From: Polytrichum commune
Taxonomy: Eukaryota; Streptophyta; Polytrichopsida; Polytrichales; Polytrichaceae
Assembly: GCA_950295325.1 (NCBI GenBank)
Contig: OX485804.1
Span: forward strand, 56,656,429 to 56,720,428
Reading direction: 5' to 3'
DNA length: 64,000 nt
In this document: positions 3,856 through 63,567 of the stretch, piece after piece
Layout of the letters: every line of letters begins with the position of its first letter
Position numbering within the stretch: the stretch's first letter is position 1
Program-made: the position numbers and the translations under genes
The notes under the pieces: generated by a model
Databases searched by the model: none
Seen by the model: only the letters and a program-made list of their open reading frames with translations
What the model was told of the DNA's origin: nothing

Positions 3856-4243
3856 AGTAACCTTCTTGTATAGAAAGCTTTGGAGCACTCTATTGAATAT
3901 GTGTAGTGCAATGAGTTAGTGGCCAAGGCATCCATGTGTGGGCAATGAGGTTCAAGGTTGGAATCCCTTGGTCACCACCCTTAGCATAGCCTTGTAGGTG
4001 GTTATGTACCGAAGGTACAGTAGGTGGAGGCCTATCACCTATGTATGATTTCTTAATGAGATAACTATAAATATTGAATTCATAAACTTCTCACTAAATT
4101 TACCAAAAAAAACGTACCACCAAAAATTACCCAGATCCAAAAAATTCATCATGTCCAAACAATTTTTTTGTCAATGTTTAAAGAGAAAAATCCAAGAGTG
4201 ATCATATCAAACTTTTAAACATGTCCAAGATGACTGATGGCCA

Positions 4244-5163
4244 ACACAGATGGCCTCAATGAAACACACATGTCATGCTTCACCATTTGTGTCGTATTAG
4301 TGTTCAAAAAGGCGTCATAAGGACCCATCTTTCCTACTAGTGCTAGGGAAAGGTGTACATGCTCAAATACATAGATCCACTACTACATCTGTACATGTCA
4401 AATGTCAAAGCTTATTTGTGATTCAACACAGATGGACTCAATGAAACACACATGTCATGCTTCACCATTTGTGTTGTATTAGTGTTCAAAAAGGCGTCAT
4501 GAGGACCCATCTTTCCTACTAGTGCTAGGGAAAGGTGTACATGCTCAAATACATAGATCCACTACCGGTACTACATTTGTACATGCCAAGTGTCAAAGCT
4601 TATTTGTGATTCAACACAGATGGCCTCAATGAAACACACATGTCATGCTTCACCATTTGTGTCGTATTAGTGTCCAAAAAGACGTCATAAGGACCCATCT
4701 TTCCTACTAGTGCTAGGGAAAGGTATACATGCTCAAATACATAGATCCACTACTACATCTGTGCATGCCAAGTGTCAAAGCTTATTTGTGGTTCAACACA
4801 GATGGCCTCAATGAAACACACATGTCATGCTTCACCATTTGTGTCGTATTAGTGTCCAAAAAGACGTCATAAGGACCCATCTTTCCTACTAGTGCTAGGG
4901 AAAGGTATACATGCTCAAATACATAGATCCACTACTACATCTGTGCATGCCAAGTGTCAAAGCTTATTTGTGGTTCAACACAGATGGCCTCAATGAAACA
5001 CACATGTCATGCTTCACCATTTGTGTCGTATTAGTGTCCAACAAGACGTCATAAAGACCCATCTTTCCGACTAGTGCTAGAAAAAGGTATACATGCTCAA
5101 ATACATAGATCCACTACTACATCTATGCATGCCAAGTGTCAAAGCTTATTTGTGGTTCAAAAC
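4244..5163. repeat. 182-bp tandem repeat, five copies
   Basis: Units beginning ACACAGATGG start at about 4244, 4426, 4614, 4796 and 4978, giving periods of 182, 188, 182 and 182 bp. The second unit is longer because of a short ACCGGT-containing insertion near 4564. Copies 3 to 5 are the most alike, so they look like the most recent duplications. No reading frame is conserved. The unit length is near nucleosome repeat length, as in many plant satellites. Confidence 0.9.
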
Positions 5164-5547
5164 AGGCCCGAATTGCAACGTGAACTAGATCTAGGGTGCT
5201 GATGATGATGAAGCAGCCATGGCACATGGTCCAAGACCGTACGAGCTCTCACAGGCACGAGCATTCCCATGCACGATATGATGCAGGCGCCGCAAACTCA
5301 CAAGTTAGTGCTCAAATGAGTGGGACTCGTACTTACGTGAGTAGCATGGGCAAATTTAGAAGGCGGGAGTGAATTTACTGATGTGCTTGAAGTTGGGATC
5401 CAACTGGCCGACAGTCCGTTGTGGCGTCATCTCCTTTGGGGCTTCCTTTTCTGACTGTGTTGTCTGTCTGCGACTCCAGGTGAATTAACTTGTCACAGCC
5501 TTGGGTTCGACCACAATCACTTTTCTTCAAGGAGAGAAGGAGGCGTT
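5164..5547. other. Unique sequence, nothing recognised
   Basis: It is slightly more GC-rich than its surroundings. I see no domain, inverted repeat or RNA gene. Confidence 0.4.
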
Positions 5548-6506: not shown

Positions 6507-6660
6507 CTCGGGTAGGCCACACTCAATAGGATTTTTGTGCATCATGTGCAGCTAAGGGTTATTTGTGTGAGGGCTAATTACCTCCAAGGCACAAATTTTG
6601 AACTCCCTATAGTTACTTGATTCTCTAAAGTGATCTTTATTATACCCTATCATTAGTTAA
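6507..6660 (+). mobile_element. hAT-like MITE family C, left-end fragment
   Basis: It starts CTCGGGTAGGCCACACT and then shares TTTTTGTGCAYCAYGTGCAG, GGGTTATTTGTGTGAGGGCTA and CTCCCTATA-TTACTTGA with the complete element at 58895-59391. Similarity fades after about 6660 and no matching right end is seen. Confidence 0.6.
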
Positions 6661-9600
6661 ATTGTCAATGTTATTGTAGTGTTTGGTAGATTATATTTCA
6701 TTCTAACTCAAAATGTTAATTCAAAAGTATAGTTAGCATTGCAAAAAATGGCATGATGTATACATACCATTGCAAACCCATACATGTGCACAATGTTAGT
6801 GAGACAACATACAACTATAAAAACATGAAACAAATCATTCCAAGTTTACAACAAGAATGTTTATAATTTATAAGTTTCATGTTACTACTCACCTAAATGC
6901 AACACTTTAGAAAAACAATAAGTTAACATATAACTACAACAACATGATGCAAATCATGTCAAGAATATAACTTGAATGGAAAATGCAGTGAAAAAATTTA
7001 AGCAAATGATTTAAAAACTACATACAAGTTTGTACATGTAGGGTTCATAATTTATATTATCATTGTGCATCACAAAAGAAGGTTGGTTTTGTTGTGCTTT
7101 CTAGTATCTCCTTCTGACATTCGATGCATAAGATCTTCACCACCTCTTAAAGTCCCAAAACTTCAATACCCGCCAAATATCTTCATGAGATGACCACTTC
7201 AAATGTATGTCTATCTTCTTTGCATGTTCAAGATATTTCTCCCACACGTTAATTGGAAGAAGAGTTGAGTTCATCTAATGGTCCAATGAATTTGTAAATC
7301 CTATGGAACTCATAACCCTAAAGCTTTAGAGAGGCTCCACATTATTGTCCTCCTCAATATTTGGAAACGCCACTTGGGCTAGTTGTTGTTGTCATACATT
7401 GGCTAGCAACTTCGACCATGTACATGACACCACTTAGGGACTTCCTCCAACTTGTTCCATTACAACAATACATACACATCGGCCTATATGTTGTTCAAAC
7501 CTTCCATCTAATGTTGAATCATGCATTTTTCGTCATAATCCCAAACTCAAATGGCCATACTAGCGCCAACTTCTCTTCCAAGCAAAGCCTAAGCAAAGCA
7601 CATGTTTCTTCCTCAAATACCTTCATCTTGCGGTTCAACAAAATCGCCCTCCACAGTGAAGATCTTCACTTGTCAAGTTGCCATCACTCAATTCCAATGC
7701 AACTACCGCAATGGAAGCCACAATGGATTAGAAGCTCCTAATGTAAAGATCACCGTACGAAGTTCCCAACAAACCCTAAACCCTATATGAATTTGTAATA
7801 AGGAATTCCATCTTTAAATCAACTACCTTCAAGTCATAAATGTGTCTTACAATGCACACCTAAACTCATGTTCAAGCAAAACACCAATGACCATGAACCC
7901 TAAATATTTTCTACACAAATATTAATCGAAGAATTGGAGCTTTGCAAGGGGGGTTGCAAAATCATGAGCACCTTAACATGAGCATGTCAGTGAGCTTGGA
8001 CATAGGTTTCATAGGCCTCTAAAACACAAATATAGGGGTGACATGGTTTCAAGCAACCCTACCCAAAATTAATTTATGATGTGAGGTTGGTACTGTAGCA
8101 TAGTTGAAAAGGAAATCTGTAATGAAGGCCATCACAGTTGCTCCCGGAATACAAACACCTTGCATGATGATTGAATGTCAAGCATAAATCTCTTATATCC
8201 GCTAGGTTTAATACCAAATACACAAAATGATGAAGAAGATTATGATAGTAACCAACAAATGCCTATTGCAAAGACAAATTGAACAAACCAAATAACTCAA
8301 ATTGAATGCAAGCAAACTCAATTAAATATCCCAAATGTGCATATTTCATAGTATTTAATATGCACTCTCACAAAACTTGGAACATATACTCTCAAGAATG
8401 TAGAAAGCTCTTTGAATTCCCACATATTACCGGCCATGCCAACATGAAACAAAATTGAGTGAATATATTCTCAATTATTGAGGCCATATCTACTAGCTCA
8501 TGTTGTTTCATACATGAAATTAATACAACACTAAAACCTACAATCAGTTCATGGCTACCTTCTTGGAGGGTTTGTACAATGCCTCAACATCCATGTACTC
8601 TTTTACCCATGCTTTAAACTTGGGGTGGAAACAATCATGGATTGGTGACCCTAAATCCAACAACATGTGTGCAATGTGTTTTGCTCATGGTGGAAGAATG
8701 TGGGCAAAGCAGGGAGATCCAAACATGGTCTTGCAAGCACGGGAGAAGTACATGAGTTCAAATGAGGCACGGGGAGGTGACTATTGAAATTTTAGAAACC
8801 ACGTGAGATAAAAAATAGGGTCAATTTAATTCATCGAGGGTAAATTTTACAAATTCATTAGATCTACCATAGCATTGGAAATATGTCCTCTACATGATTA
8901 TTTGTAAAATAGGGTGGTGAATAATTCCTCCATTTTAGTAATCAGTAGAAAAATAGGGTATTAGATATTGGATCCCCCCAAATGTGTGTAGTAGGATCAA
9001 TAGAATAATTATGGGTTTGACTACTTGGATGAAGAATTGTGTAAATTTTGTCCAAATTTGAATGAAACGCGTTAGTATGGAGGGAAATGTTGTGGATTTT
9101 TTTTGGGGAAGGAATGTTGTGACTTCTCAATGGCCCTTGGCTTGCTTAGGGTTGGGCAAGCACAGTGGCGTGAAGGTGGTGAAGCGTTCGGGTAGGAGGT
9201 CTTGCATTGGTGAAGTGTGGCGTATAGGTGGTAGGTAAGACACATTTTTTGGAGTTTTCTTCTTTGCTTCATAACGTTCACACAAGGTGTTTCATGAGCG
9301 CCAAAGATTCAGCTTGCTCCGCTTGCATGCGGTAAGAATTGATTTCAAACTCCAACTCCTTGATTTTTCCCTTCCACTGTCTGTTTTTTTACGACATGCT
9401 ATTGATTTTTGACGCCCTCCTAAATGTGAGATGTAGAAAGATGAAGAGTTACAAAACTTGAATGTGAGCGTAGAAAGATGAGATGCTTTCCAAGTTATTT
9501 TGTACTTGTATCTTGTTCTTTGAGACATCTACCTCAAGTGGGATGTTCTGATGTCGCTACCAAGAGTTGTAAAAATATGTACGTTTTGATGAGATGTGTC

Positions 9601-46251: not shown

Positions 46252-46955
46252 ATTTAATGGATGGGTACTTCTATGTGGGGTGCCGGTCTATTCCGATTTT
46301 CTACTTTCTCGCCAAACTTGGTGAGTAATAAGATGTCACATTTTATGAAGGTGACCAGTTATGAAGGTCATCGTCATTTAGCTTTTGATATTTGACTTGC
46401 ACAATAATTTTTTACATTTATTGAATGAATTGCAAATTATGTGTTCTTGGTGTCCATAGGTGGTACAGATGTCATCTATGGAAATATATAAATATTTATA
46501 TATTTTACTTTTAGTTGAAATCGTGATTGTACGTTGTTTATAAGTGTTTTTTGATACATTTTCATAGACTTTGATTTTTCATATTAAACCTGACACTTAT
46601 TATCATATTGCATTATGTATATGTATTTTTTACTATTAAGATCCAAAATTTTGAAAACATCATAAAATAAACGTTCCCATTAGTTCAGTTTAACTCAAAA
46701 TGAGAACTTCGACAATAGAACATACAATCATCTTCTATCTCTTATTTCCTTTTCATTTCTACTCACAACTAGGGTTTGAGTGTACAAAGAGTCCATGATG
46801 CAAGAGAGAGGTTTCATACTCTCGGCAACTAATGCCATCATGTCCGTCATGCCCTAGGAATACCCCTCAAAAGAAAGGACTTGAAGAACAAAGTGGCCTT
46901 TAGTACCCAAAGATGACCAGCCAATCCGGTCACCGGAGCTCTCTAACCGGCACAT

Positions 46956-46985
46956 CACTACTAGGAAAACATGCGAAATATGACT
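46956..46985 (+). repeat. CACTA left terminal inverted repeat
   Basis: These 30 bases are identical to the reverse complement of 60598-60627. They start with the family-defining CACTA and lie next to CAT at 46953-46955. Confidence 0.95.
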
Positions 46986-47830
46986 GGGTTTTGTGACTAA
47001 AAACGGGCATAAATGACCTTATGACTACTACCCATTTTAATCATCAACCCAGTCATAACGGACAAGTCAGATTTTGAAATATGACTACACTCATATCTGC
47101 GGGCATACGTTCCCAATGCCGCGTTCCCGAAATATTTTTGGGTTCTCGATTCTGGGTAGCCTGTCAAATGTGACTATTTATAATCACAAATATGTGACTC
47201 GTATTAGTCATAATTATTTGACTGCATTTAGTCAGCTTCTTCAACTCAATGGCTAAAATGTCATGAAACGTGGTTCTCATAACATGACTGCCAGTGGTTG
47301 CAGAATATGATCGTGATGACTACAATTAGTCATTGATGTAGTTTTGAAATTCTTAAGGCTCGTCATCCATTCACATGTGTTGGTAAACATTCGAGATGTC
47401 GTGACTATATCCAATAGTGCCGGATGACTACAACTAGTCACATTTAAAAACAAAATACTGGTTTCTGACTGATTCTCGATTGTTTTCAGTCCAGATTAAA
47501 CGACTACTCATAGTCATCCACTTAAAAAATTTGCGTATGCTTCCTGATCACTGGTCATCATTTCCAGTTACGTTACTACTTCGTATGTGAAATGGTAGTC
47601 AGAACTTTAGATACATTCAAGATCACGCACAACGATATGACGATATAGATGCAACATATGAGAACAATGTTGACAAAAATTGCAAAAAGTCAACCTTTGT
47701 TTATATAGTCATTGCTTTCAAACATGTGACTAGAGCTAATGACTACATGTAGTCAGCTTGGGTCACATAATATACTCATCAGACCCAAAAAGCTTACTGA
47801 ACACTAAATGACTACATATAGTCCGCTAAA
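46986..47830. repeat. Left subterminal TGACTA/TAGTCA motif array
   Basis: At least twelve TGACTA or TAGTCA hexamers (one mismatch allowed) lie in 0.85 kb. Many form inverted pairs such as GACTACATGTAGTC (47744) and GACTACATATAGTC (47810). In En/Spm the subterminal repeats bind TNPA, so by analogy these should be the binding sites of the element's own DNA-binding protein. Confidence 0.75.
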
Positions 47831-47909
47831 TTCAATCGATCACTACAATCACAGTGAAGCTCTAATATCCACATTGTTCTAACCAAATTGAATCGTGCCC
47901 TATTTTAGC

Positions 47910-49419
47910 CTAATTAAGTTCACATGGATGCTTTAGGAATTGGGTGGGCCACAATATAAAGTTGCCTACTGCTTGTCCCATTTTCGTGATCGGTGGGTCG
48001 TCCAAATCTACGCTGCAATAGAGAAGGTACTCGTCGAGTTTTCTCTTTTGCACTTCCACTGAGACACACCCTTCTGGAATTGTGACCCCATGCAACTTGG
48101 ACCCTTCCAGGTTAACCACTTTTCCAATACCAATCACCTCTTCTTCTTCTCCATCTGCAACACCTATAATCTCAACAACATCGCCCTTGCAAAATTTCGA
48201 GGTCGATGAGCCTTCATCCTTTTGTCCGCTTATCTGCAATAACACAAACATTTGTAAATAAAGGAATGAGGACTGCCATTAAGACTATTCATGCACTTTA
48301 AGAAAACACCAAATGTGCAGTGCGTTGGGTCCCCTTACCTTTGATGTGTTTTTCTCCTGGTGAGCTCCCATTTTGTCTTCTTTCCTATCCGGGGCCGAGA
48401 CAACATGACTGCTTGATTGCTTCTGTTTTGCAGCTTGTCCCCGTGTCTTCCTCTGCTCAAAAACTGGAGATCCCTTCGAAGACCGGCTTTGCTCCCCCTT
48501 GTCCAAAGACCCCTTCTCCTTTCTCTTCCACTCGCTGGTGGTATCCTTCTTAGTCCGGGGTATTTTCTGCTCACCCCCCATGATTTCCAGCTTTTGACTC
48601 TTAATGATCATCTTTTTCTTCTCACCAGGTGGACGAGGCTTCGGGAGGGACGTCAAAGCAACGTCGTCCACATCTTCCTTCCCTTTGCTGACTTCTTCCA
48701 TCTGCATGCCCTCTCTTCCATCAGAGATTTCTTTGGAATCCTTAGATCAACCATAGTCAGTCATGCAGTGACAGTCAATGTTAAAGGGAATTTTCTGACT
48801 AAAGCTAGTCACAAATAGTCTAGAACGTGACTAATGTTACTCATAGTCTCCATAAACTTCACTAGCACTAGTCATAAGCAACTCGGAACTTTGAGGTTCA
48901 TAGGCAATGAGCACAAAAACACCTAAACTTAAACTGTGATTAACCATTGATTATGTGTCTCAGACCTCTGCAACATACCTTTTCACTGAAGACAACGTCA
49001 TCAATTTTCAGCTCATTCTTCATTTTCTCCCCTCCACTGTCATTTCCACATTCAGGGACAATATTATCTTTGTCCACGTTCTCTGCTGAGCTGCTTGCAG
49101 CTCCACCTTCCACCTGTACATTTGAAAGAGGTACTGCATCTGCCTGTGGAATCTTCAAGGCAGCTAATATCAACTTCAGGCTCTCCTCTAACCCATCCAT
49201 GCGTCTGTGTATGTCTCTATCCGACACCATTTTCGAGTGCATGCTGGACGGCGAGCTGCGATCAAATCTGCTTCTTCCTGGTGACTTGGAGGAGACATGG
49301 CTGCCACCTGCCTTCCTAGTTACAGCCTCTTTTTCCTTTCGCATGGACAAGTCAAATTCTTGCCGTGTTAGAGTCCTCTCCAATTCAATGGCCTGCACCA
49401 ACATAGTCTTCCCTTGCAA
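47910..49419 (-). CDS. TNPA-like CACTA protein (three visible exons, minus strand)
   Basis: Exons are 49419-48979 (5' limit open), 48701-48339 and 48233-47910. The junctions are AAAAG|GTATGT, CAG|ATG, AAG|GTAAGG and GCAG|ATA, all phase 0. The first exon has an RQEFDLSMRKEKEAVTRK helix and a DIHRRMDGLEESLKLILAAL helix, suggesting a coiled-coil region. The middle exon is basic and low-complexity (Lys/Ser/Glu-rich). The last exon has KGDVVEIIG and GVTIPEGCVSVEVQ and ends in a MGQAVGNFILWPTQFL block. The pattern G-x-F-x-x-W-P near the C-terminus is typical of plant En/Spm TNPA-like proteins. Expected role: binding subterminal repeats and aiding or repressing transposition. Its orientation is opposite to the transposase, unlike maize En/Spm where both share one transcript. 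A start codon could not be fixed. Confidence 0.65.
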
Positions 49420-49439
49420 AGTGGATCATTGAATCCTAT

Positions 49440-52060
49440 CATGAAAGATTAAGGTAACATTGACTGCCTCTGTGATACCATTTTTTGGATAGGATATGTG
49501 ATTTTTGACTTTGAAGAATAGATGAGTGACAAATTACACTCAAGACTCACAGAACAATGATACAATAGGTGATTAGTCACTCAGGAGTGGAAACAGGCAA
49601 GTGTGGTAGAATATTACTTAGCTGCCCGTAGTATAGAAGATATCAGGAGTCATGAAATTCACATGTGACAATTAAAAGAAGCACTTGGTATCCTAGCTTG
49701 AGGCAGTCACCACCTTTCGGGACAGGAAGATAAGAAGGAGGAGGAAGAGGACAGGGGAGAGGGTATTGTAATTTTGATCCTCCTCTCGTGAAGAGAGTGA
49801 ACCTGTTTTTATCATCTCTCCTATCTCCAGGGTGTGAAACCCTTGAACTTACTGTAAATCATACTTTTGAATATATAAAGTGTACATTCGGATATATCAT
49901 TTGTACAAGTTGTTTGTGACTTTGTAAGTGGAATGTTTTGTTGTTTGGGTGGGATTTGATTCAAGGGTGTGAAACTCCTGAATGTAAGTATGTGAGACTC
50001 TTATGTGAGTATTAAGATCAACATCGTGTATAATTTCTTGGATAGTCTCTTAAGATTCTGGATTCCCGTAATGAAGTGAATGTGTGGAAAGTGAAAGTCC
50101 CTAAATCGGAGAGAGTCTCGAAAGAACCTAGGATATACTGCTCCTGTGAAAGGAGTAAGTTTTGTGGGATCATCTTAAGCTCATGAGGGAGGGCATGTCA
50201 GAGAATTTGATTGTGAAGCTCTTGGTTAAGTGGGGAGTCTTTGAGAAATTCTACCTTTGTGTGAATCGAGGCAATCTTCATTCTCTATGCATGTCTTAGC
50301 CTATGTAAGCATGAGACAGGAATGAAGTTGCTCAACATGGTGTAGTGTCTTAATTTCAAGATTCTCATTCATGTCCATAACTTACAAATGGGAGATGGAA
50401 TTCCACTGTGAATAACTGTGTCATTCACTTATGTGAATTTAATAAGAGAATTTATAGTGATCCTCTCGGGAAGAGGGAGATGGAATCATCCTTATATTGA
50501 AATATTATCGGGGAATGATCATGAGAAAACTTGACGTATCAAAGTTCCCATTGTGAATGAATCTATGTATGAGTGTAGACTCTGGGAATTTCTTGTGAAA
50601 GGGAATTAGTGATTCAATCCGAGGTTAGATCATGAAATCATTCTCTTTGATTGAGAGAAGTTTTTCAACTAAGTGAAGATACCCTTAAATTTTCCTTTGA
50701 GCGTGAATCTCCTGCGAAAGGAGTTACCTCTACCTAACCTGGTTCTATGTGGGTCGTGTAAATTGAGAGCAAGTCAAGTATATATCTCTGTGAAAGAAGA
50801 TATATCAACACCTTCGGTGGACTGATACTTTCTCTTGTCTCAAATTAATATATGGACCGCCATAACAGGGCCTAATTCCAGGACGATCTTTGTGAATTAA
50901 TTTCCTTCAGTCATTATTACTGCATAATATCAGGGTGTGAAGCCCGTGGTTTCTGTTAGATTACATGAAGTCTAATCTAAGGGAGTTATGAGTCTTTGTC
51001 TCTCCATCAATTTGTAGGAGAATTGGAGTTCTTCTGTCCCCTTCAGAATACTTTCTTCCCTGAGAGTTCAATTCCATATCATTAGAGAATGAGAATTGAA
51101 TTTGGTGAAGGAGTTATCCCGGGAGAAAGAAGTGGAAATGTCTCTCCTACCCCTTTTTAATTCTGAGCTGTCAGTGTGATGGAGGTGGGAAATTACCACC
51201 TAGAGAAACTCCTGTTCCACCTTTGAGAATTCGAAAGGAGAGTTTTCGAGCACTCGAGGAATCGACCAACAACTATTTAGAACATGTAGTTTGCGCTAAG
51301 AGGAAGGAATTCGCTATACTTTTCCTCTCCAAGCCTGGTGTTCCGAGAAGGAACTCTCTGCTGCTCAAAGTGTGGAAGAGATTGTGGTTCTCTCCTAAGA
51401 AATTGACTGCAGTCATGAAAGAGTTTCCTTACTGATAATGACTTTGTGATCTTTGAGTGAGTTTGCGACCAAAGAGCAGATCATAATTGTTGTTATGGGG
51501 AAGCATTATGTTTGGATTGTGAAAACTGTGTAGTAATTAAGTCTCACTATTATAACTGTGAAGCACGAAATGTATTGGAGGGAATCCCTGTGAGGAGTAA
51601 ACTCTGATGCCGGCCGAGAAGGGTCGGAGGAATTAGTTCCGCGAAACAGCCGCGAAAAGAAGATGCACCGCATCGGAGACGAAGAAGTCGCGTGAAGGAG
51701 CAGAAGCTGTAAGAGGGAGCTGGGCTCACATATCCCATATCGATTGGGTTGAGCGGGAAGGGCAGGTATATAACCTATCCTTTCTCAGTGGCTAATGTGT
51801 CCAGACGCTTCTCATGACACAAGACTGTCTATTGGTTACTGGTTACTAGTTACTTGGCATTGGTTACTAGACGTTTCTCTGGATACTTGTGACTAGACGC
51901 TTACTTGGAACTGGGAACTAGACGTTTACTTGTGACTTGGCACTAGACTGTTACTGTTCTGACCCGGTCCGCTTCAGAGGCTTCTCGCTCTGTTCCCGGT
52001 TCGTGGTTCTGTCACTTATAACTAGACTTTTATAAAAATCCCCTAAGTCCTAATTTTTAC
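49440..52060 (+). repeat. 2.6 kb noncoding region with recurrent GNGAA-loop hairpins, LTR-like
   Basis: Small stem-loops with a constant five-base loop G-N-G-A-A and varying complementary stems recur. Examples are CTCTC-GTGAA-GAGAG (49783), AGGGT-GTGAA-ACCCT (49829), a 7-of-8 paired stem at 49961-49981, CTCCT-GTGAA-AGGAG (50141), CTCTC-GGGAA-GAGGG (50463), an 8-bp stem at 50587-50607, CTCCT-GCGAA-AGGAG (50709) and one at 50781. A TATA-like GGTATATAACC lies near 51765, followed by TTACTGGTTACTAGTTACT-type short repeats. No protein domain is visible. A long retrotransposon LTR inserted in the CACTA element would fit, but I found no unambiguous TG...CA ends or 5-bp duplication. Confidence 0.4.
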
Positions 52061-53157
52061 AAGTATGGAAACCTATCATTGTTTGAGTAATGAATAAAAT
52101 TATTTATGATGAGTGTGTGACAAGTCAAGTCACATGAGAATGGATTAATTGTGATATTTAAGTGTCAAACTCAATCCATTACCCCTTTGAACTATCAATT
52201 GACCTTATCGTGACAAACTAAAGATACATCTGACACTCATTTAGTCTTCCCTGGGTGTTTTTTTTTAGCTGGAACCCTCGATGAAAAAAAAAAAAAACAC
52301 TATACAATTAATACTTGGAATTATTTTAAGTTTATGTGAACACTACGTTTAAAAATAAAGATAAGTGAAGGTTGACTCTCAAAACAAAACAAATATCATA
52401 GTGTGAAACTTAAATTTAGATTGTACTATCGTTTATTTGATAAAATTTTAAATATCTATATTCAAAAAGAAATTTCACCAATGTCTTTTCTATTTTGATT
52501 ACAAACAAAATATTTAATTTTTTTAATAAATAGTGTTATGACCCAAGTGTTATGATCTCAAGCTGGGCTTGAGATTTCATTATTCTATCACATACATCAC
52601 ACTTATACTCCATAGTAAGTCAACTATTAAGGTATCAGTTTAATTTTTTTATAAATGAATAAAACAAATAAATATGAAATAAATATAACAAATAAAACAA
52701 ATATAGAAATATAACAAGTTGAATAGAAAAAAAACCCCTTTATATAGTATCAATAATCATTCCAATCAAGTAAAGTAAAATAAAAAAAATAAAAAATTAT
52801 TTACCGGACTTTTACATTTATCGGACTTTTACATTTATCACAATATGTATTTTTATGTCCTTGATGATCTTCTCTTGGTTGAGCTGAACATGAAAGTCAT
52901 GATCTATGCACTCAAGTTCAAGAGTGCTTCATCACCTGTTTTGGAATCATCAAGCCCTTCCTCTTTCATTTCTTTGGTAATTTTCTCTCACTCAATTGAG
53001 TCACCATTGAATAGAGTAGGGAAAATACCAAATCAACAGAACCAAATCAACAACCCCAAGTTGATTACTGACTGAGTCGACTCGACCTAATCAACAACCG
53101 CAATCAACAATTTTCAGTTGAATTTCTATTGGTTTGGTCACAGAAATTCTAGTAGTG
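52061..53157. other. AT-rich stretch ending in a CACTA-type terminus
   Basis: It has no gene. The last bases, GAAATTCTAGTAGTG (53143-53157), read in reverse as CACTACTAGAATTTC, a common CACTA end. They are preceded by repeated ATCAACA/TTGAT motifs (about 53020-53120) that differ from the TGACTA motifs of the host element. It may be the right end of a different CACTA element nested here; no matching left end was found. Confidence 0.35.
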
Positions 53158-53404
53158 TATGTGAGCAAGCATGACTAAATGTAGTCATACTTGGGACTGC
53201 ATGACTCAATGCAGTCAGATTTAGTGACCACGTGACTAATAGTAGTCCACGTAACATGAATGGCTATATCCACAACATTTCACTGAATTGAATTTACTTT
53301 TGGCTGCTCCTTCCTAAAATGGAATGTATTGTAGCAGCTTATTCCTAAAGGTCAATGTATTGTTGCATGTTTTAAAAAAAATTGTAGTTATGTTGTCTAG
53401 GTGG

Positions 53405-54400
53405 ACCGCATTTTAGCCGATGGATCCGACATCACGGAAGGAACTTTTGCAATTGCAACTGTGGGACATCGAAGAGAAAGAAGCTGTCGCGCACCTCTCC
53501 ATGAGGAGTGCCCGAAACACCATGGGCACAAGGGGGACCCCGGAGTGACACCCGGGACTTGTGGCGCCATTGGTGAGAGGGCCCAAGTGATCCTAGTGTG
53601 GGTGAGGGCCCCGGGCGTTGGGAACGCCTCCCACCCACGGAGACTAGGAAGCACAAGGGTAAGGCCATGAGCTATGCGTAGCTCATGGCGTGGTGATTCT
53701 AGAATGCTCAAGAACACCTCAATCGGAGGTGTGAGCTAGGAGTTATGGCCATTTGAGTGGGGCGCTGTCCCGGGACAGCGCCCTGGTACAGCAGTGCCTG
53801 GGAGTGATTCCCGGGACTGCCAAGGTTCAAACAGGCATAACTTCCTCAAGACTTGCCCGAATGGGGCAAGTGAGGAGTCCATCTTCATCTACGTGAAGCG
53901 TTGATGAAGATGGAGTGGTTGGTTGTTATGATCGGACATCATACAAGGAAGTTATGATGGTCTGAAGCTGCCGGGGGGGTTCTAGGCCCAGCAGCTAAAG
54001 GAAAATGTCCACTTGGCCCCAACTCTTGGTAGAGAGACAAGAGGTTGGTTGACGGTGGGGTAGGGGCCCCGCGTAGAGTCCTAGAGGCTTATATGGGTGA
54101 GGTGGTGTGGCCTCACCCACCCGAGGCCAAACGGCAAGGCCTCCATGGGCTTTGGCCTATTGTGAGGCCATAGTTGCCTAGTATGACTCGGGTTGTTGTA
54201 GTGTTGCTCCGGCAACGCGATGATCAACATAAGATGGGACTTCCATGGATGGAAGTCCACATCTAGGAATGGGTTACCGATTAAGGGGTGAGTCCCGAAA
54301 GCAAAGTAGGAGGGTTGGTTCCCCTCCTATGAACTATATGGTCCGGGGTAAGAGGAGCTAACCATTAGCATGGCGGAATGTGAAGGGTTAGCGACTCGTA
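53405..54400 (+). other. GC-rich, hairpin-dense 1-kb island
   Basis: This block is far richer in G+C than the rest of the window and carries many near-perfect stem-loops: 53664-53689 (11-bp stem), 53761-53782 (22-bp perfect palindrome), 53851-53871, 53879-53913, about 54100-54123, 54203-54216 (stem with TCCG loop) and 54237-54258. Open frames on both strands are a composition effect. It lies just upstream of the transposase-associated exon and may be a separate insertion or a structured leader. I recognise no known family. Confidence 0.45.
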
Positions 54401-54404
54401 ACCT

Positions 54405-54599
54405 TTGCTAGAATTGAAAATTGGCAAGATTGTCAAGGGGGGGCTAGCAAGGGTTGCGACAGAAGTTGACCGGCAAGGTCTAACAAGTTACCCTTGCCCA
54501 TGTAAGAAATGCATGGGTGCGAGAATATTGGATCGGAAAACCATCCGCAAACATCTACGGAAGTACAAGCGAGATCCAGAATTTAAAAGATCAATCCTG
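54405..54599 (+). CDS. Transposase-associated zinc-type domain exon (Transpos_assoc-like)
   Basis: Residues from VKGGLARVATEVDRQGL through YPCPCKKCMG to a TIRKHLRKYKRDPEF helix follow the plant Transpos_assoc pattern. That domain normally forms the N-terminus of TNP2-type CACTA transposases: an x-CPCxxC zinc knuckle followed by a helix with HL. The exon probably ends at 54599 with donor GTATGC. A candidate acceptor at 54691-54692 opens a phase-compatible frame from 54693 that reaches 54850, where the SET sequence starts in another frame. The start codon is not clear and the exon may begin further upstream, beyond the GC-rich island. Expected role: DNA or protein binding by the CACTA machinery. 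Confidence 0.6.
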
Positions 54600-54847
54600 G
54601 TATGCTATCGTTACTATTTTTATGATATGTTGGATGTGAATAATATGGGGAACTAATGCAACTGCCTTACTTTGTTGGAATGAAACGTGTAGGAAACACA
54701 GAGACCTATTCTACTGGCTGCAACAGCTACTGCATTAAAGTCAGTAATTTCAGCTACTCTACCGTTTCGAAGGAGCGGAGAGAATAGTTCGGTTCCCAAT
54801 CAGCAAGTGTCCATGGATACTGTCCACACAGATAGCTACCATGGGCA

Positions 54848-55288
54848 GTGGCGCATAGGCCCCATCCCAAACTCAAACCCTTCACATTTTGGGATAGAAA
54901 GTGGGAGGTTAGGGTGTCCACACATCCCCACATGGGATGGGGCCTATATGTCATGGAAGCAGCCAAAGCCGACGATGAGTTACTGCCATTTGTTGGAAAA
55001 CAACTATCAGTGGCAGAATTCAAGAGTATATGTCAAGCAAACCACCGATTTCTGAAGTATGCAATACACGTGAAAAAAAATGTTTATCAGGATGGAGATG
55101 TATTGAATGGAAATGTTGCAGGGTTTATTAACAACTCTATTGGAAGAGAGCATTTAGGAAATGTACTTTGGGAATACGTGTCATTGCCTACTCCTTGGAA
55201 TCCAAAAATTTGGAGGTATATCATGACTATAGCAACACGTGATATTGACGTGGGAGAGGAACTATTCACATATTACCCTTTAAACTGA
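54848..55288 (+). CDS. SET-domain protein (lysine methyltransferase type) carried by the CACTA element
   Basis: The frame encodes about 146 residues with the SET landmarks in order. MGWGLYVMEAA near residue 29 is the N-terminal G-x-G-L block. NVAGFINNSIG near residue 90 is the N-x-x-x-F-I-N-H-S block, here with Asn in place of His. TIATRDIDVGEELFTYYPLN at the end is the A-x-R-D-I-x-x-G-E-E-L-x-x-x-Y block with the catalytic-type Tyr. SET proteins transfer methyl groups from S-adenosylmethionine to lysines, usually on histones. No post-SET cysteine cluster follows. The stop is at 55286-55288. The frame opens at a GTG after an in-frame TAG at 54833, and no ATG start is obvious, so it is probably an exon of a longer protein or slightly frameshifted. 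It sits between two CACTA transposase parts. Whether it is active is unknown. Confidence 0.75.
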   Translation: MAHRPHPKLKPFTFWDRKWEVRVSTHPHMGWGLYVMEAAKADDELLPFVGKQLSVAEFKSICQANHRFLKYAIHVKKNVYQDGDVLNGNVAGFINNSIGREHLGNVLWEYVSLPTPWNPKIWRYIMTIATRDIDVGEELFTYYPLN

Positions 55289-55299
55289 CATGACGTCCT

Positions 55300-55620
55300 T
55301 TTTGTAGCAATGATCTCAGTAACCCATATGACTAAATTGTTGTAATCCTTAAGTGCTTAATGATTGCGGAGTCTGATAGTTTACTCTTAGGGGTAGTCGT
55401 AGTCATTGTTTTTGCGTTGATGACTAACTCCTGGTCACTTTTTTCACAGAGATGACTAAATTGTTCTCACTCATTTTGCACAGATGAGTAAATCGATGTC
55501 ACTGTTATGGTATGGACGACTAAATTGCAGACAATGTTACCAAATAGATGACACAAGTATTTAGATTCATTTTCTATTGTTATATTATCGTAAGCAATGC
55601 AAGTAACGTCACGTACCTGT
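55300..55620. repeat. Internal TGACTA motif cluster between SET frame and transposase
   Basis: TGACTAAATTGT recurs near 55329 and 55452, with related GACTAAATTG at 55518 and GATGACTAACTCCTGGTCAC near 55419. These are the same motifs as at the element ends. They lie in sequence that would be intron or intergenic. Confidence 0.55.
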
Positions 55621-57099
55621 AAATAATTGGGGGGTTGTTGTTATGTTGTATGAAGTTTGGAATATTGTACGAAACTGGACAAGATTGCCAAGACCTCCAC
55701 GAACGTCATGAAGCGCAGGGGGAAATCCCGTCCATGCAAACCGACTCTGAGGAATTTGAGCTTACACGGATGGTCACAGAGTGTTTTGCACGATACGACA
55801 ACATCCCTCCCGCTACCTATGATGGAATTGATGAGGACGAAAATGACAGTGCTTTGGAAGACGATGACCTCAATAACGTAGATCTTACGACAGTCATTGA
55901 GGAATCAAACATTCCCCTATATGAAGGCTCGCAAACAAAGCTGTTGGTTGCAGTGCTTCTCCTATTCAATTGCTTCACGGTATTTGAAGTTTCAAACACT
56001 TGTGCAGATGAAATCTTGAACGTGATCACCAAACTTCTCCCCAAGGGTAATAAACTGCCAAAATCCCACTGGGAAGGGAAGAAATTCCTACGGAATTTGG
56101 GGCTTTCCTACAACTCCATCCATGCATGTAGAAACGGGTGTTGTTTATTTCGACGCAAGTTAGCAGAGGCCTTGAGCTGTCCGAAATGTGGGGAGATGCG
56201 ATACATATCAGATAATAGTACAAGGGCAACGAAGATACTAAGGCATTTTCCACTTATACCCCGTCTGTTGCGAATGTTTCGATGTGCCCGACTTGCACAG
56301 TTAACCAAGTGGCACACATCAAGGAAAAAACTGGACGGTTATATGGAGAGTGTTTCAGATTCTAAAGCTTGGAAACACATCAATGCTGTGTATCCGGCAT
56401 TTGCCTCTGAGGAGAGGAACATACGACTAGGGATGGCCCTAGATGGTGTGAACCCTTACTCAACCCAATCATTAAGTCACTCAACGTGGCCAGTAATAAT
56501 GTTGAATTACAACCTTCCTCCCTGGCTCATCACGAAACGTTTCTTTCTAATGTTGGTTCTTCTAATCCCTGGAAAAGAAAGCGTCACTTCGGAAAACATA
56601 GATGTCTATTTGGCCCCACTTATTGAAGAGTTGCAGCAACTGTGGCATGGTGTGAATGCCGTCGATGTATCGACTGACGGTGAAAACAAACATTTTGTCC
56701 TCAAAGCAATTTTGATGTGGTGCATTCACGATTATCCTGCGTATGGTCTTGTCTCTGGGCAAGTGACAAAGGGTTACAAAGGATGCACTGAATGTGGCCC
56801 TAATGTTAGTACTCGTCGATCAACTGCACTGGGCAAAAATTTATATTTGGGTCATCGGAGATACCTAACAAGGAATCACCCGTATCGACGACTCCAAAGA
56901 GCATTTGATGGCAAAGAAGAAAATAGAGCGTTACCTTGCCCTCTTACTGGTCGAGACATTGTGCGCCACGCTAATGCAAGGGAGAAATGGCTAAATGCCT
57001 CCAACGAAAACAGACATGGGGGGGTCAACGATCCAGTGCACACAACTAGAGTGAAGAGGTTGTCCGGCTTGTTTCGTCTTCCGTATTGGCAGGTCAGTG

Positions 57100-57320
57100 T
57101 ACCATAGCCATTTCTAGACCTTACACTAATTTACATTATTTCTGCTATTTGACTGTAAAACACTATATGTGATCAATACATGATTATCTGCACTTAGCGC
57201 ATGACTATATGTAGTGCAGAAATCAGTGGTGCTAGTCACATGTTTGGATCCCCTGACTCGGTAAATAAAATATGACTAGTGCATAGTCATGAACACCAAA
57301 TCCACGACTACATTTGTACG
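57100..57320. repeat. TGACTA motifs in transposase intron 2
   Basis: GCATGACTATATGTAGTGCAG near 57200 and TATGACTAGTGCATAGTCATG near 57270 are inverted pairs of the element's end motif. They lie inside the intron between the predicted exons ending at 57092 and starting at 57391. Confidence 0.5.
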
Positions 57321-58894
57321 AATACACACAGAATGCCGTAGTGAGGAGATGTGCATAATTGCTCTAACATGAGTCGAGCACTGCTTGCAGGCTCTTATGA
57401 TCCGTCATGTGTTGGATCCAATGCATTGCGAAAAAAACTTGTGCGAAAACATCATGAAGACAATATGGGGATTGAAAGATACATTGAAATTAAGACTAGA
57501 CCTTAAGGAGGCGTCGATACGTCCCGAGCTCCACCCGAAACCTGGTGGAAATGACACCATCATACTACCAATTGCTCCCTATGTGCTGTCAAAGGTGGAG
57601 AAGTCAAAATTTATCAAAACTATCCGCAACCTGAAGACCCCCAGCAACTACGTGGGGCAGTTGTCGAAGAGGATAACCGTTGATGGAGACCTTCGTGGGC
57701 TTAAGTCACATGACTACCACATAATGATGCAGCAAATTCTTCCTTTATGTGTGTGAACACTCCTAACAAAGGAAGTTCGTACGACAATAATTCGTACAAG
57801 TAGGATCTTTGTGCGATTATATGCAAAGTCTGTGGATCCATCTACAATGGAAGACCTGATGGAAGAAACTGCAGTTACTATGTGTATGTTGGAGAAGGTC
57901 TTCCCGCCGGCATTTTTTGATGTCATGTCACATCTACCGATTCACTTAGTGCAGCAGTTAGACATTTGTGGTCCGGTTCACACACGTTGGATGTACCCTG
58001 TTGAACGGTATATGAAAACGTTGAAGGGCTACGTATGGCAACGAGCACAACCGGAGGGGTCGATGGCAAGAGGGTATATTATGGAGGAGGCACTTGGATT
58101 CTGCACCGAGTACATGCAAAACTGCACTGTGACATCACGCTGTGTATGGGACGACAAAAAGGAGCCAAGTACAAATGACGAAGTGTTACAAGGGAAGGGG
58201 AGACGGCGCGTACTGTCTCCGCAACTGCAACAGTGGATTCATGAGTTCGTGCTCAACAACGTTGAAATACTTGAAGATTACAGAAAGTATGCACCTAAGC
58301 AATATGATTGTTAGGTAGTAATACATGTCAAACAAAGCACTATGTCTAGTCATCGTTTTTCATTTTAGGACTAGCTATGAAGACGAGACATATGAAACAG
58401 TCAGAAAAGTGAAGAAGACTACTAGGTATAGTCACAGTTATGAAGAAGATGACCAACATAGCTGTACATGTTGTAGTAATGTAACAGTGTATGGAAAGTA
58501 ACGGTCTTGAGGTGATGTGTATATTGCAGGCGGTATGCCACTGAAATGACTAGACGAGAAGAGGCCAGAAAAACCGTTAAAAGACGAAGCAAGGGAAGAC
58601 ACGCAGATTATCCCATTGATGTACGACAAGAATCCTTCAGTACGTGGTTCCAAAACGCAGTGACCGAAGACACTGCGAGGGGGAATGATGTGTCCGAGGA
58701 TGTACATGCACTGTTGTTGCCTCCTAGACGAGAAGCAAAGGCATACAAGGCGATGTATGCATATGGCAATCATATACGAGTACGGGGAGCAGAAGCATCT
58801 ATGTCCACATGTGACAGTGGAGTAGCAGCTACATTTCTCCAATCTTGTCGTTCTAGTTCTAGTGACAAGAATATGAGAACAACAAATCTAGAGT

Positions 58895-59391
58895 CACGGG
58901 TAGATTACTCTAAGGCATTTTTGTGCACCACGTGCAGCTGGGGGTTATTTGTTTAGGGGCTATTTACCTTCAAGGGCTGAATTAAAACCTCCCTATAATT
59001 ACTTAAATTTCAAAAATGGCCCATTTGTTTGCACCCTTCCATTACTTATATTGTCCAAGTCACTGCAATTTTTTGTACTCTATATTCCTTTTAAGTAATT
59101 TTGGACATACGGAAATCCCAATTATCATCCATCCCCGTGAGTCCCAAACCCATTTACATATCACACTAAACATACCTTCTAGGATCCTTATCTTCAGCCC
59201 CTATATTAATTTTACAAAAAAATAATGGCCCACATTTTATGTCCATCTAATTTACTTATAATGGGATTGTCTACATTTAATGGCCCCTTCATTATTTGGA
59301 ATTCCTTTATAATTTTTATTTCAAATGATTTTAATCCTCTCTATATTATGCCGCACGTCATTTTTAAAATGCACTAAGTGATCTACCCGTG
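58895..59391 (+). mobile_element. hAT-like MITE family C inserted in the CACTA transposase
   Basis: The 497-bp element has ends CACGGGTAGATTACTC and GAGTGATCTACCCGTG-type (the right side reads AAGTGATCTACCCGTG). The inverted repeats extend about 27 bp into the TTTTTGTGCAC/AAAATGCAC zone. It has a perfect 8-bp duplication TCTAGAGT at 58887-58894 and 59392-59399. It splits the DUF4216 exon: the frame before reads through NLE and resumes after with YVGWVDE. It shares its 5' part with the fragment at 6507 and its outermost bases with 43176. Confidence 0.92.
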
Positions 59392-59639
59392 TCTAGAGTA
59401 TGTAGGGTGGGTGGACGAAATTATCAGCGTAGACTACGGGAAATATGAAGTAGTGGTGTTGTATTGCACATGGGCACAAGCCAACAAGAGGGGAGCTCGG
59501 GCTACAATGAAGTGCGACGAATATGGATTCACATTGTTCAGATTTGATCGACTGATTCCATATTCAGCGGATTCTTTTGCATTTCCTCTTCACGTACAAC
59601 AAGTATTTTTTGTAGACGACGAGGAGAACAGTGAATGAA

Positions 59640-60399
59640 AGATTGTTTTGCGACGACAGCCACGTGGTGCAAGAGTCGAGTCAAGCGACGGCGGAAGGCA
59701 TGAAATGCAAAGTGTGCAGTTAGGTAGAGTAGAGGAGCATGCAGGCCTGCAACCCAACATGCAGTACCATGGACAAGGAATCGGACAATAATGATTTTAG
59801 CAGATGGAAGAGACTTACCACCCGAGATGTAAACAAAAAATTGGTTGTTGTAGAGAAGGATCTAGAGGTGGGATATGACCAACTATCAAACACACTATGA
59901 ATGGTAGTCATTTATGTCATTGCCAAGATATACAATTGGACTTGCCTTCCAACCAACTTCAACGTCACCGATTGAATAAAGAACATGCGTGTGCAGTGGC
60001 TCAAACGAAAATCCACATCGACAAGTATTTGAACAATGTGCAAAGAGAATTGTAGTGGTTGTAGATAGTTTGAGTTTGCAATTGCAAAAATTTCCATAAC
60101 ATCTGAAGTAAAAAACAGATGGGAAAATGCTTCCAAGAAAAAAAGATTGGAATGAAAAACACTTCAAATAACACTCATATAAGTTCACAAAAAATTTTAA
60201 ATTTTAAAAAAAAATACTATAACCCTAAGGAGAAAACCTTAAAGGAACAAAATAAAATCATGAGAAGAGATAAACTGAAGGAAGGAAAGAAGAAGTGAAA
60301 GAATAAATTGAACATAAACAAAGGAAAAGAATTGCATTAAAACCATGAATGCCCCACTCCTAAATCCCCCTACAATTGGCTGCCCAAAACTATAGTCAC
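59640..60399. other. CACTA 3' noncoding part
   Basis: After the transposase stop codon at about 59638 there is AT-rich sequence with no recognised domain and few end motifs until about 60400. Confidence 0.45.
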
Positions 60400-60597
60400 C
60401 TAACTACTAATTCTAGTCATATGGCTGCCCATGAGAAAAACAATTGGGAGAACACGTTCCCTACATAGTTCCCATTCAGGCCCCCTGAAAATATGACTAA
60501 AATCATAGTCATGTGATGACTATAGTCATTTCTAGTCACCAAAGTGGTCACTGATGACTGCATTCTAACCAGTAGTCATATCCGGTCATAAGGCCCT
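60400..60597. repeat. Right subterminal TGACTA/TAGTCA motif array
   Basis: About nine TAGTCAY or TGACTA units occur in 200 bp, including CATAGTCATGTGATGACTATAGTCATTTCTAG-type clustering near 60506. It mirrors the left array. Confidence 0.7.
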
Positions 60598-60627
60598 AGT
60601 CATATTTCGCATGTTTTCCTAGTAGTG
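60598..60627 (-). repeat. CACTA right terminal inverted repeat
   Basis: It ends in CCTAGTAGTG, is the perfect 30-bp inverted copy of the left terminus, and is followed by CAT at 60628-60630. Confidence 0.95.
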
Positions 60628-60630
60628 CAT

Positions 60631-61589: not shown

Positions 61590-62690
61590 TGACTCCACTT
61601 CCAATCGACTCTCAAGTTTGAGTTTGCACTCGTCACATCCCAGTCCATGCAGCTCCCTGGTGACATTCCTCCTTACATTTGTATTGTAACTTAGTACTCA
61701 GGTGGCTATACATATATCCTTAGAGATCCAAGTTGCAGGCAGCAGCATGTGCACTCGTAAGAAAATTAATAAGTAGCACAAGTGGTGGATCTTGTGACAG
61801 TGGAGGAGGGAGCTGGTTCCTCTGCCGGGAGTGTTGGATGATGGTGTTTGAGGAGTAGCAGGTGACTCCTTGGGAAGGCTGGACTCTTCAGGTCACTCGA
61901 CACTGAAATTTGAAGCTTCAACCGTTCACATCCCACGAAGCTCCCCAATCACAATGTTCCTCCTCACATTCATCCCGGTATACCACTCTTATCCTTGCAA
62001 AGCGCGTGTGATTAGTAGCACAAGGAATTTTGTTCGGGAGCAGAGCAGCTGGTTCCAACTGCCGGGAGTGTTGATGATGTTAAAGGAGTGGCAGGTGAAT
62101 GTTTAATTAAAAAGCTGAAACGGATTAAACTTTTCTTTTCTTTTTTGACAAAATAAAAAAATAAAAAATCCATTATATTAGGATCAGTCTTGATTCTTTA
62201 GTCACTTGAAGCTTGAACTCTCCCCAGTGACAATATTCCTCCTCAAATTCATCCTGGTTTACAACTCTATTTGTCCTTGCAAGCATGTGTAAGTAATAGC
62301 ACAAAGGATCTTGTTGATGATGTTTAAGCAGCGGCAGGTGAATGTTTGGTAAGGCTGAAACAGATCAACCTCTCTATTTTACCCTCTTTTCTTGATAAAT
62401 ATATAAATTTCATTATAGGACCAGTCTCAACTCTTCAGTCACCGTACACTGAAATTTGAAGCTTAAATTTCTCTTCAGTGACAACATTCCTCCTCACATT
62501 TCCTGGTATAGATAGCCTCTTATCCTTGCAGGTGCCATGTGTAAGTAAGTTGCACACCTCATCATGTCAATCTTGTGATTGTGGAGCTGGGAGCTGGTTC
62601 CACTGCCGGGAGTGTTGAAGTTGATGGTTTGAGGTCAAATCTGAGTGCAGAGAGTGGCAGGTGAAACTTAATTGGTAAGGCTGGTGGTCC
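61590..62690 (+). repeat. Four degenerate tandem copies upstream of the GH3 start codon
   Basis: A unit running from CACTGAAATTTGAAGCTT through GTGACAAYRTTCCTCCTCACATT, CTTATCCTTGCA and GAGCTGGTTCC-CTGCCGGGAGTGTTG to GGCAGGTGAA recurs. Copies begin at about 61590, 61883, 62191 and 62429; the third is internally shortened. The fourth runs straight into the GH3 initiator region (GGCAGGTGAAACTT...AAGGCTGGTGG then ATG at 62693). The unit therefore probably contains promoter, leader or 5'-UTR intron sequence of the gene that has been multiplied. Confidence 0.7.
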
Positions 62691-62692
62691 CA

Positions 62693-63567
62693 ATGGACAC
62701 CAATACTAGGCTTGATGTTGGAGAGGATGATGGCCTCTTGGTGTTGCCGTCAAGGCGGGGGATAAACCCTGAGGATCCGGGCTTCAACCCAGACGAGTTT
62801 CTGGACACGGTGTGCGAGCAGTCGATGAGCATCCAGCGGGAGAAGCTGCGGGAGATTCTGGCCAGGAATGCAGAGGTGGAGTATTTGCAGCGCCATGGAT
62901 TGGCAGGGCGCACTGATGTGGAGAGCTTCCGGAAATGTATTCCCGTGGTGAGCTATAGCGATGTGGAGGAGGACATCATGAAGCTGGTCAATGGGGATGA
63001 GGATCAAATTAAGAAACCCATCTTGACTGTCGACCCAATCGTATTCTTCAATATAAGGTCCTCAACCTCCATCTCAAATTTCAACTGCCCAGTGTTGACA
63101 CATCATGTCCTTCGAGGTTTATTATCTTTACAGTGGTAATTCCACATTTAGGTGATGAAATATTGGTTTAGTATGAATTGCTATTGAAGGTGACAGCAAC
63201 TTCGGTCCGATTGTCTTCCCTATTGAAGCTATTTACCCAATTTTGTTCTTTTGGGATGCTCTTCGAGAGTGAAGACTACCACACAAAACATCAGATGTCG
63301 CCGAATCTCAAAAAGTAAATATTATTAAAGAAATTCAGTAGCAAAAATAAGTTAGGGATCACTCTTTTGTTTAGTGCTTAAATTATAAAATTAGACCTTG
63401 GATATTTAGTGTATGATTTTTTATTTTTTATTTTTTATTTTTTATGTGGGTGCTGGTGAGTGCAGCTCAGGAACCACAGCTGGGAAAGTCAAGTACCTTC
63501 CTGAAACATTGAAGGCATTTGATGGCCGGGAGTTTCTCGCACGCATCTTGAAGTCACTTGCATATAA
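62693..63567 (+). CDS. GH3 family acyl-acid amido synthetase, N-terminal part (gene continues beyond the window)
   Basis: Exons are 62693-63057 (donor GTCCTC) and 63466-63567 (acceptor GTGCAG, donor GTGAGG). The join completes an SSGTTAGK motif. The protein starts MDTNTRL. It has NPDEFLDTVCEQSMSIQREK, the N-terminal GH3 helix. Next come LREILARNAEVEYLQRHGL, IPVVSYSDVEEDIMKLVNG and ILTVDPIVFFN, and then S-S-G-T-T-A-G-K, the ATP/AMP-binding motif 1 of this ANL-type enzyme family, followed by KYLPETLKAFDGREFLARIL. GH3 enzymes adenylate a carboxylic acid hormone (auxin, jasmonate or similar) and couple it to an amino acid in the cytosol; the substrate cannot be told from this part. The remaining exons lie beyond 64000. 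The frame is clean and the codon use is GC-rich compared with the flanks. Confidence 0.85.

Follow-up and report, generated by a model that had tools for sequence, protein, structure and literature searches.

In plants, methylation of histones and of DNA keeps transposons silent, and plant CACTA elements carry a TNP2 transposase with a transposase-associated domain, DUF4218 and DUF4216 and generate 3-bp target duplications. The excerpts of the literature on which we draw describe SET genes within mobile elements of oomycetes. HarbingerS and MuDR elements of Phytophthora have SET genes (Kojima and Jurka 2014, as cited in PMC12730594), and Proto-Helentron-Pi of Phytophthora infestans has a SET frame of about 153 amino acids (PMC4067079). 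Another epigenetic enzyme gene, TET/JBP, is carried by fungal EnSpm and other transposons (PMC12730594). Vandal elements encode VANC, an extra protein that counters their own silencing via short motifs in the non-coding DNA of the element, and KIU has retained a captured Ulp1 domain over the long term (PMC13317346). SETMAR, or Metnase, joins a SET lysine methyltransferase to a transposon-derived DNA-binding protein (PMC9062482).

The locus described here is a TNP2-type CACTA element of the moss Polytrichum commune that carries a SET frame; it lies in a 64,000-nucleotide stretch of DNA (C2:56656429-56720428) that was analysed whole and is called the window. Like the HarbingerS and MuDR elements it moves by cut and paste and brings a SET gene along, but those elements have Harbinger and MuDR transposases and an oomycete host, whereas the transposase in the window is PF02992 TNP2, the host is a plant, and a CPCxxC exon precedes SET. 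Proto-Helentron-Pi also holds its SET frame within a mobile element, but it is a rolling-circle element and its SET domain is Clr4-like with conserved cofactor sites; the moss domain is divergent, with N-S/N in the pocket. Vandal and KIU are likewise plant DNA transposons with an extra protein or a long-kept captured domain, but they are of the MULE (Mutator) type, KIU carries Ulp1, and the excerpts mention no SET. The fungal EnSpm elements share the CACTA superfamily and the presence of an epigenetic enzyme gene, which in the fungi is a 5-methylcytosine dioxygenase and in this plant a SET gene. SETMAR has the same pairing of SET with a transposon-derived DNA-binding module; it is a single host fusion gene in primates, whereas here SET is carried by the element. 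The idea that SET-bearing transposons are unprecedented is too strong given the published HarbingerS/MuDR (PMC12730594) and proto-Helentron (PMC4067079) elements. The narrower statement of the earlier note, that no SET-bearing TNP2 CACTA family is known, agrees with the open-licence papers among the literature matches listed, which show no plant CACTA element with SET. Plant CACTA elements with TNP2 share the termini, 3-bp duplications, TNP2, DUF4218 and DUF4216, and among the papers listed none was shown to have SET. "SET" does not occur as a word in a review of how plant transposons capture genes (PMC13317346), and a term search of a survey of plant SET proteins gave no transposon terms (PMC5725981).

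The features of the element are collected in Table 1. Its matching termini and target duplication, noted earlier, are borne out: the two ends carry the terminal sequence CACTACTAGGAAAACATGCGAAATATGACT without a difference over 30 nt, CAT borders the element on each side, and the inverted termini have the CACTA...TAGTG form of the CACTA/En/Spm superfamily. The earlier placement of all parts on the transposase strand and 5' of TNP2 also holds, with the plus strand used throughout and TNP2 downstream (PF02992, 248.5 bits; DUF4218, 132.9 bits). Exact copies of the 19-nt terminus lie at 16 genomic sites, compared to 0 for the reversed control. Five terminus pairs were examined, and all five have 3-bp target duplications (CAT, ATG, TTT, ATT, and GAA). 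Four of them enclose a SET copy, and each of these four has a perfect duplication; they span 13.7 kb in the window, 15.5 kb on C4, 13.9 kb on C5, and 53 kb on C3. The fifth pair, at C5:52436022-52437285, bounds a 1.26-kb derivative with the GAA duplication that is probably non-autonomous. The density of the motif TGACTA/TAGTCA is 18.9 and 10.1 per kb at the ends of the window element, compared to 0.7 and 0.3 in the flanks, and 9-13 per kb in three non-coding stretches inside it, and a count of the same motif gave zero in the stretch from exon 1 to SET. The antisense gene at 47910-49425 has no Pfam match at E below 0.1; it may resemble the DUF8039-type proteins associated with plant CACTA elements. 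An isolated terminus-like end, CTAGTAGTG, lies inside the element at 53149-53157, with no left partner within the window. Outside the element the window holds a tandem array at 4242-5165 (5 copies of a 182-bp unit, 95% matches) and, 2 kb past the right end, an exon of a GH3-type gene at 62672-63139 (PF03321, 82 bits).

Table 1. Features of the CACTA element in window coordinates.
Feature	Position	Strand	Remarks
Left CAT target duplication	46953..46955		
Whole CACTA element, TNP2 type	46956..60627	+	13,672 bp including nested inserts; identical 30-nt termini, CAT duplication
Left terminal inverted repeat	46956..46997	+	90.7% to right end over 43 columns, first 30 identical
5' subterminal region, dense in TGACTA/TAGTCA	46956..47909		18.9 per kb vs 0.7 in left flank
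Antisense second gene, several open frames	47910..49425	-	40% tblastn match in L008
Exon 1, 5' half, from ATG 53420	53420..53484	+	in frame into 54462 without the LTR and one duplication
Solo LTR inserted in exon 1, foreign to the CACTA gene	53485..54461		977 bp; 93% to both LTRs in L021
Exon 1, 3' half: CPCxxC to SIL, then GTATG donor	54462..54599	+	transposase-associated-type module
Exon 2 carrying SET	54693..55288	+	198-201-aa frame in relatives; out of frame in window, 1-nt deletion
Open SET frame of window copy	54836..55285	+	150 aa; PF00856, 27.7 bits
Region between SET and TNP2	55289..55650		TGACTA/TAGTCA 11 per kb
TNP2 transposase gene (PF02992, DUF4218)	55651..58953	+	exon limits approximate; TGA stop at 57754-57756
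MITE in 3' part of transposase gene	58895..59391		497 bp; 8-bp duplication TCTAGAGT
DUF4216 end of transposase gene	59392..59638	+	27.8 bits, below cut-off of 30.6
Right terminal inverted repeat	60585..60627	-	
Right CAT target duplication	60628..60630		

The window element is one decayed copy: it contains the solo LTR, the 1-nt deletion, the stop in TNP2 and the MITE. The length of its 8-bp duplication makes the MITE hAT-like, and a stretch at 6531-6697 is 72% similar to it. A repeat at 50000-52000 has many partial copies in the genome, three of which are 77% alike over the first 850 bases, and it is likely part of an old retroelement nested in the CACTA element. A 200-kb sample of C1, drawn blind, yielded a full element with the LTR (L021), a match to the antisense open reading frame (L008) and a match to the MITE region (L017), and no SET or TNP2 match was present in those 200 kb.

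The identity of the SET domain, proposed earlier from motifs, was confirmed by profile search. The frame at 54836-55285 matches PF00856 with 27.7 bits (cut-off 22.4, E 3.7e-6) over profile positions 1-104 of 105, and 13 of the 14 aligned family members match at E 0.01 or better, the best at 2.2e-10. One of the 14 also matched Novel toxin 17 (8.8e-4) and one the PR domain (0.009); these are taken as weak side matches. In a PDB search, the family profile found an H3K4-specific methyltransferase (2.3e-5), which we take to be of the Set1 type, and ASH1L (3.6e-5), and the best match of the window frame alone was ASH1L at 0.06. Structure prediction of the single SET frame gave a mean pLDDT of 40. 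The 14-row alignment shows no variation in GWG or in the pocket N and hardly any in the tyrosine that follows GEEL (column Y125), presumably the catalytic tyrosine of SET domains. The canonical SAM pocket of SET domains contains N-H within an RFINHSC-type motif. In all 28 copies aligned the pocket N is followed by S or N and never by H (GFINSS, GYINSS, GFINNS, and GFINST-free variants such as GFINSF), and G replaces the R of the canonical motif in the aligned family rows. The N-H pair is kept in all 10 host-like SET exons that were fetched. With N-S/N in place of the canonical N-H, the methyltransferase activity of the family is putative, and this pocket could mean that catalytic activity is altered or lost. 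A perfect 15-nt inverted repeat (54855-54869/54933-54947) overlaps the GWGL codons. The idea that it is a MITE that created GWGL was rejected because the same sequence is present in six aligned close copies, with single changes in L023, L027, and L028, and GWGL is invariant in the 14 rows.

The genome (407.8 Mb in 64 contigs) was searched with the window SET frame, and 150 of 213 candidates were scored; a search for TNP2 had 652 candidates, of which 148 were scored, and these 148 were used after two short fragment rows were left out. Counts of SET or TNP2 presence are lower bounds, since each search scored a subset of its candidates. The genome holds at least 150 related SET frames, so the SET frame is not single-copy; the earlier note had proposed to check for several copies. 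Of these, 88 are longer than 380 nt, or near full length: nine at 87-100% identity and 79 at 39-66%. Sixty-five of the 88 are free of stops, and these span 45-100% identity. Among the matches listed, 83 of the 150 SET frames (67 of the 88 long ones) are followed on their own strand by TNP2 at a distance of 914-3291 nt, compared to about 0.2 pairs expected by chance from the counts and genome size. TNP2 was upstream or on the opposite strand within 15 kb in none of the 150, and 67 of the 150 had no TNP2 partner within 6 kb, again among the TNP2 matches listed. Conversely, 66 of 148 TNP2 relatives had no SET within 15 kb upstream among the matches listed, a figure inflated by the limits of the listing; SET is therefore not needed for transposition. 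A second genome search with the Pfam SET profile scored 150 of 155 candidates. Among those listed, 119 were Pfam-SET matches, 90 overlapping the transposon SET set and 29 outside it.

Twenty-eight SET copies were read, the 8 best and 20 others of varied identity; this sample favors intact copies because most were chosen as near full length and stop-free. Twenty-seven were grouped into clades A (8, including the window copy), B (6), C (5), D (7) and E (1). Selection was measured by pairwise Nei-Gojobori dN/dS, with L032 omitted because its protein is identical to that of L031; the pairs are not independent, and most between-clade pairs are saturated at synonymous sites. Between clades A-D, pN is 0.24-0.35 and pS 0.73-0.83; with the single E copy included, the ranges are 0.175-0.36 and 0.69-0.87. 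Since pN is well below pS between clades, the SET protein has been kept by selection along the transposing lineages, which agrees with the purifying selection that the earlier note had proposed as a check. The median omega within clades A, B, C, and D is 0.22, 0.25, 0.11, and 0.50. Omega for close pairs reaches 1.60 in clade A and 3.01 in clade D, so many copies are now decaying, as would be expected once they have inserted. Comparison of the copies shows SET to be a repeated, heritable component of these elements, with a stereotyped order of CPCxxC exon, SET exon and TNP2, and under purifying selection.

The exon structure was revised by comparison with relatives. The start of the first exon had been placed at 54405, which is wrong because 54402-54461 is the tail of the 977-bp solo LTR that splits exon 1. 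Without the LTR, exon 1 reads from ATG 53420 through CPCKKC and SIL to a GTATG donor at 54599/54600. The LTR is flanked by GAAGC and GAAGT, and it is absent from this site in six of the seven other close copies (L023-L027 and L029); the seventh, L028, is without homology to exon 1. Its source match, L021, is an element at 77.00 Mb of C1 whose LTRs (987-1972 and 7251-8235) are 99.9% alike. The same LTR is also present at L029:529-1502, inserted in the SET-bearing exon upstream of the domain. The CPCxxC exon is kept in copies of clades A-D; in the window, where the LTR interrupts it, its match to the transposase-associated profile PF13963 is partial (profile 30-59 of 74) and, at 23.8 bits, below the Pfam cut-off of 27.7. 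In L024 and L026, Tyr takes the place of the third Cys of CPCxxC. Exon 2 follows the acceptor at 54692 and is one open frame of 198-201 codons, with SET at its end, in L027 and L028; L026 shares this frame, interrupted by a single TAG. The frame is broken in the window by the loss of 1 nt near 54870 compared to five of six aligned copies. A SET exon start at 54836 was rejected because unbroken copies read from 54692/54693 and the apparent start is the frame break.

The predicted junction of the two exons is conserved. In L030, L031, L034, L038, L042, and L046 (clades B, C, and D), SIL are the last residues of the exon with CPCxxC and TIRxHLR, GT comes next, and the SET exon frame opens directly after AG. 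L027 (clade A) has the same splice sites with SMV in place of SIL. Thus, all 7 copies in which both exons read in frame have a GT donor, an AG acceptor and phase 0. Because these sites are conserved in clades A-D, exon 1 and the SET exon are predicted to be spliced into a fusion protein of about 265 amino acids, with the CPCxxC module at the N terminus and SET at the C terminus. The more distant L091 (37-1509) and L092 (582-1298) have a 326-aa or 239-aa frame that ends in SET. Their SET exon is 37-38% identical to clade D, a CPCxxC frame lies 5' of SET in L091, and they probably represent another SET-bearing element family. The CPCxxC-SET combination probably predates the clade split because it is present in clades A-D and in L091. 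In three SET-less relatives (L050-L052) TNP2 comes after the same exon 1, and phase-0 AG sites precede TNP2 in these relatives and in the window. Exon 1 may therefore serve both proteins, since it ends in phase 0 and also lies 5' of TNP2 in SET-less elements. Alternative splicing of exon 1 to SET and to TNP2 is possible, and maize En/Spm provides a precedent for alternative splicing.

The history of the SET gene was followed on a TNP2 tree of the window segment and 20 hand-chosen segments, with a midpoint root for drawing only. Ten of the 21 segments were labelled with SET and 11 without. All SET-bearing rows fall, with SET-less ones interspersed, in one group of 18 rows (100/99, midpoint root). 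The SET label needs four changes, a number as low in 6 of 500 shuffles; L066 was first labelled SET-less because its SET fragment is 7.0 kb from TNP2, beyond the 6-kb limit, and relabelling it reduces the changes to three. A history with a single change is rejected on either count. One gain with several losses would fit the tree, and repeated gain is likewise compatible. In the L050 line, loss is favored because about 20 residues like the exon 2 start of L049 persist (E 1e-5; only 0.09 with L027). The 150 scored relatives of the window frame do not include any of the 29 other Pfam-SET matches. The best of 10 host-like SET exons taken from these 29 scores 18.6 bits with the family profile, and the close host-gene similarity of Pack-type capture was not found among these 10. 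Scans of viral contigs with SET and TNP2 queries and of prokaryote contigs with SET confirmed no relative, and NCBIfam gave no match for three frames.

The joining of a DNA-binding-type module to SET, together with the motif clusters, suggests that the element marks its own chromatin. The putative DNA-binding CPCxxC module would bring SET to the TGACTA/TAGTCA-rich ends and inner regions of the element, and SET there would methylate a histone, or the transposase. The element would then escape silencing, or its ends would become accessible. Such a protein would resemble VANC, with which Vandal elements counter silencing, except that it would contain a chromatin-writing domain, and one exon 1 would serve both the SET protein and TNP2 by alternative splicing. 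We place at about even the chance that a TNP2 CACTA clade has long carried SET and that its transposase-associated-type fusion marks the chromatin of the element in one of these two ways. A more specific proposal is that the SET fusion shares its exon with the transposase by alternative splicing, binds TGACTA and deposits or blocks a histone mark, thereby escaping silencing by the host, and that expansion of the clade has left most SET frames found in the genome transposon-borne; this is plausible at a little under an even chance. The predicted joining is itself open to another reading, in which SET would be a separate protein translated from an internal start, with TNP2 as the only splicing partner of exon 1. 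The SET-less L050-L052, where exon 1 is followed by TNP2, and the phase-0 AG sites 5' of TNP2 there and in the window are consistent with it, but copies of clades A-D keep both the AG where the SET exon frame opens and the reading frame ahead of SET, and we consider separate translation improbable.

What the domain does, and to what, allows two further readings. SET may be a degenerate lysine-methyltransferase fold used for binding (of SAM, a histone tail or a partner) or as a scaffold for the transposase or the module, and not for catalysis. The change of N-H to N-S/N and of the preceding R to G in aligned members would fit, as would the retention of N-H in every host-like SET exon fetched, whereas the GxG motif, the N and the terminal tyrosine vary little or not at all, and PR-type SET domains also depart from the canonical motif and some are active; a purely binding role is rather unlikely, while deserving some weight. 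Alternatively, SET may act on host chromatin or on a non-histone protein such as the transposase or a silencing factor, and not on the chromatin of the element. This is unlikely, since the CPCxxC module of the element lies in phase before SET in clades A-D, which suggests that SET is aimed at the element; the Ulp1 domain retained in KIU, which according to the excerpts has no precisely known function (PMC13317346), speaks in its favor. A chance event in which one element picked up a SET exon of the host, followed by passive amplification and decay, would account for the stop in 2 of 9 close near-full-length frames and for the LTR in the SET-bearing exon of L029. It is rejected as very improbable given the at least 150 related frames, the 65 long stop-free ones spread over 45-100% identity, a pN far below pS between clades and the low score of even the best of the 10 host-like exons compared. 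Marking of the element's own chromatin is the reading that we carry forward.

Surveys of plant SET genes could count transposon frames as host genes because 90 of the 119 Pfam-SET matches listed fall in the transposon SET set. Sibling elements with and without SET coexist in one genome, and they offer a comparison for silencing, copy number and insertion. A transposon lineage has kept a SET gene while its synonymous sites neared saturation, and it is a natural example of a parasite that may write epigenetic marks of the host type.
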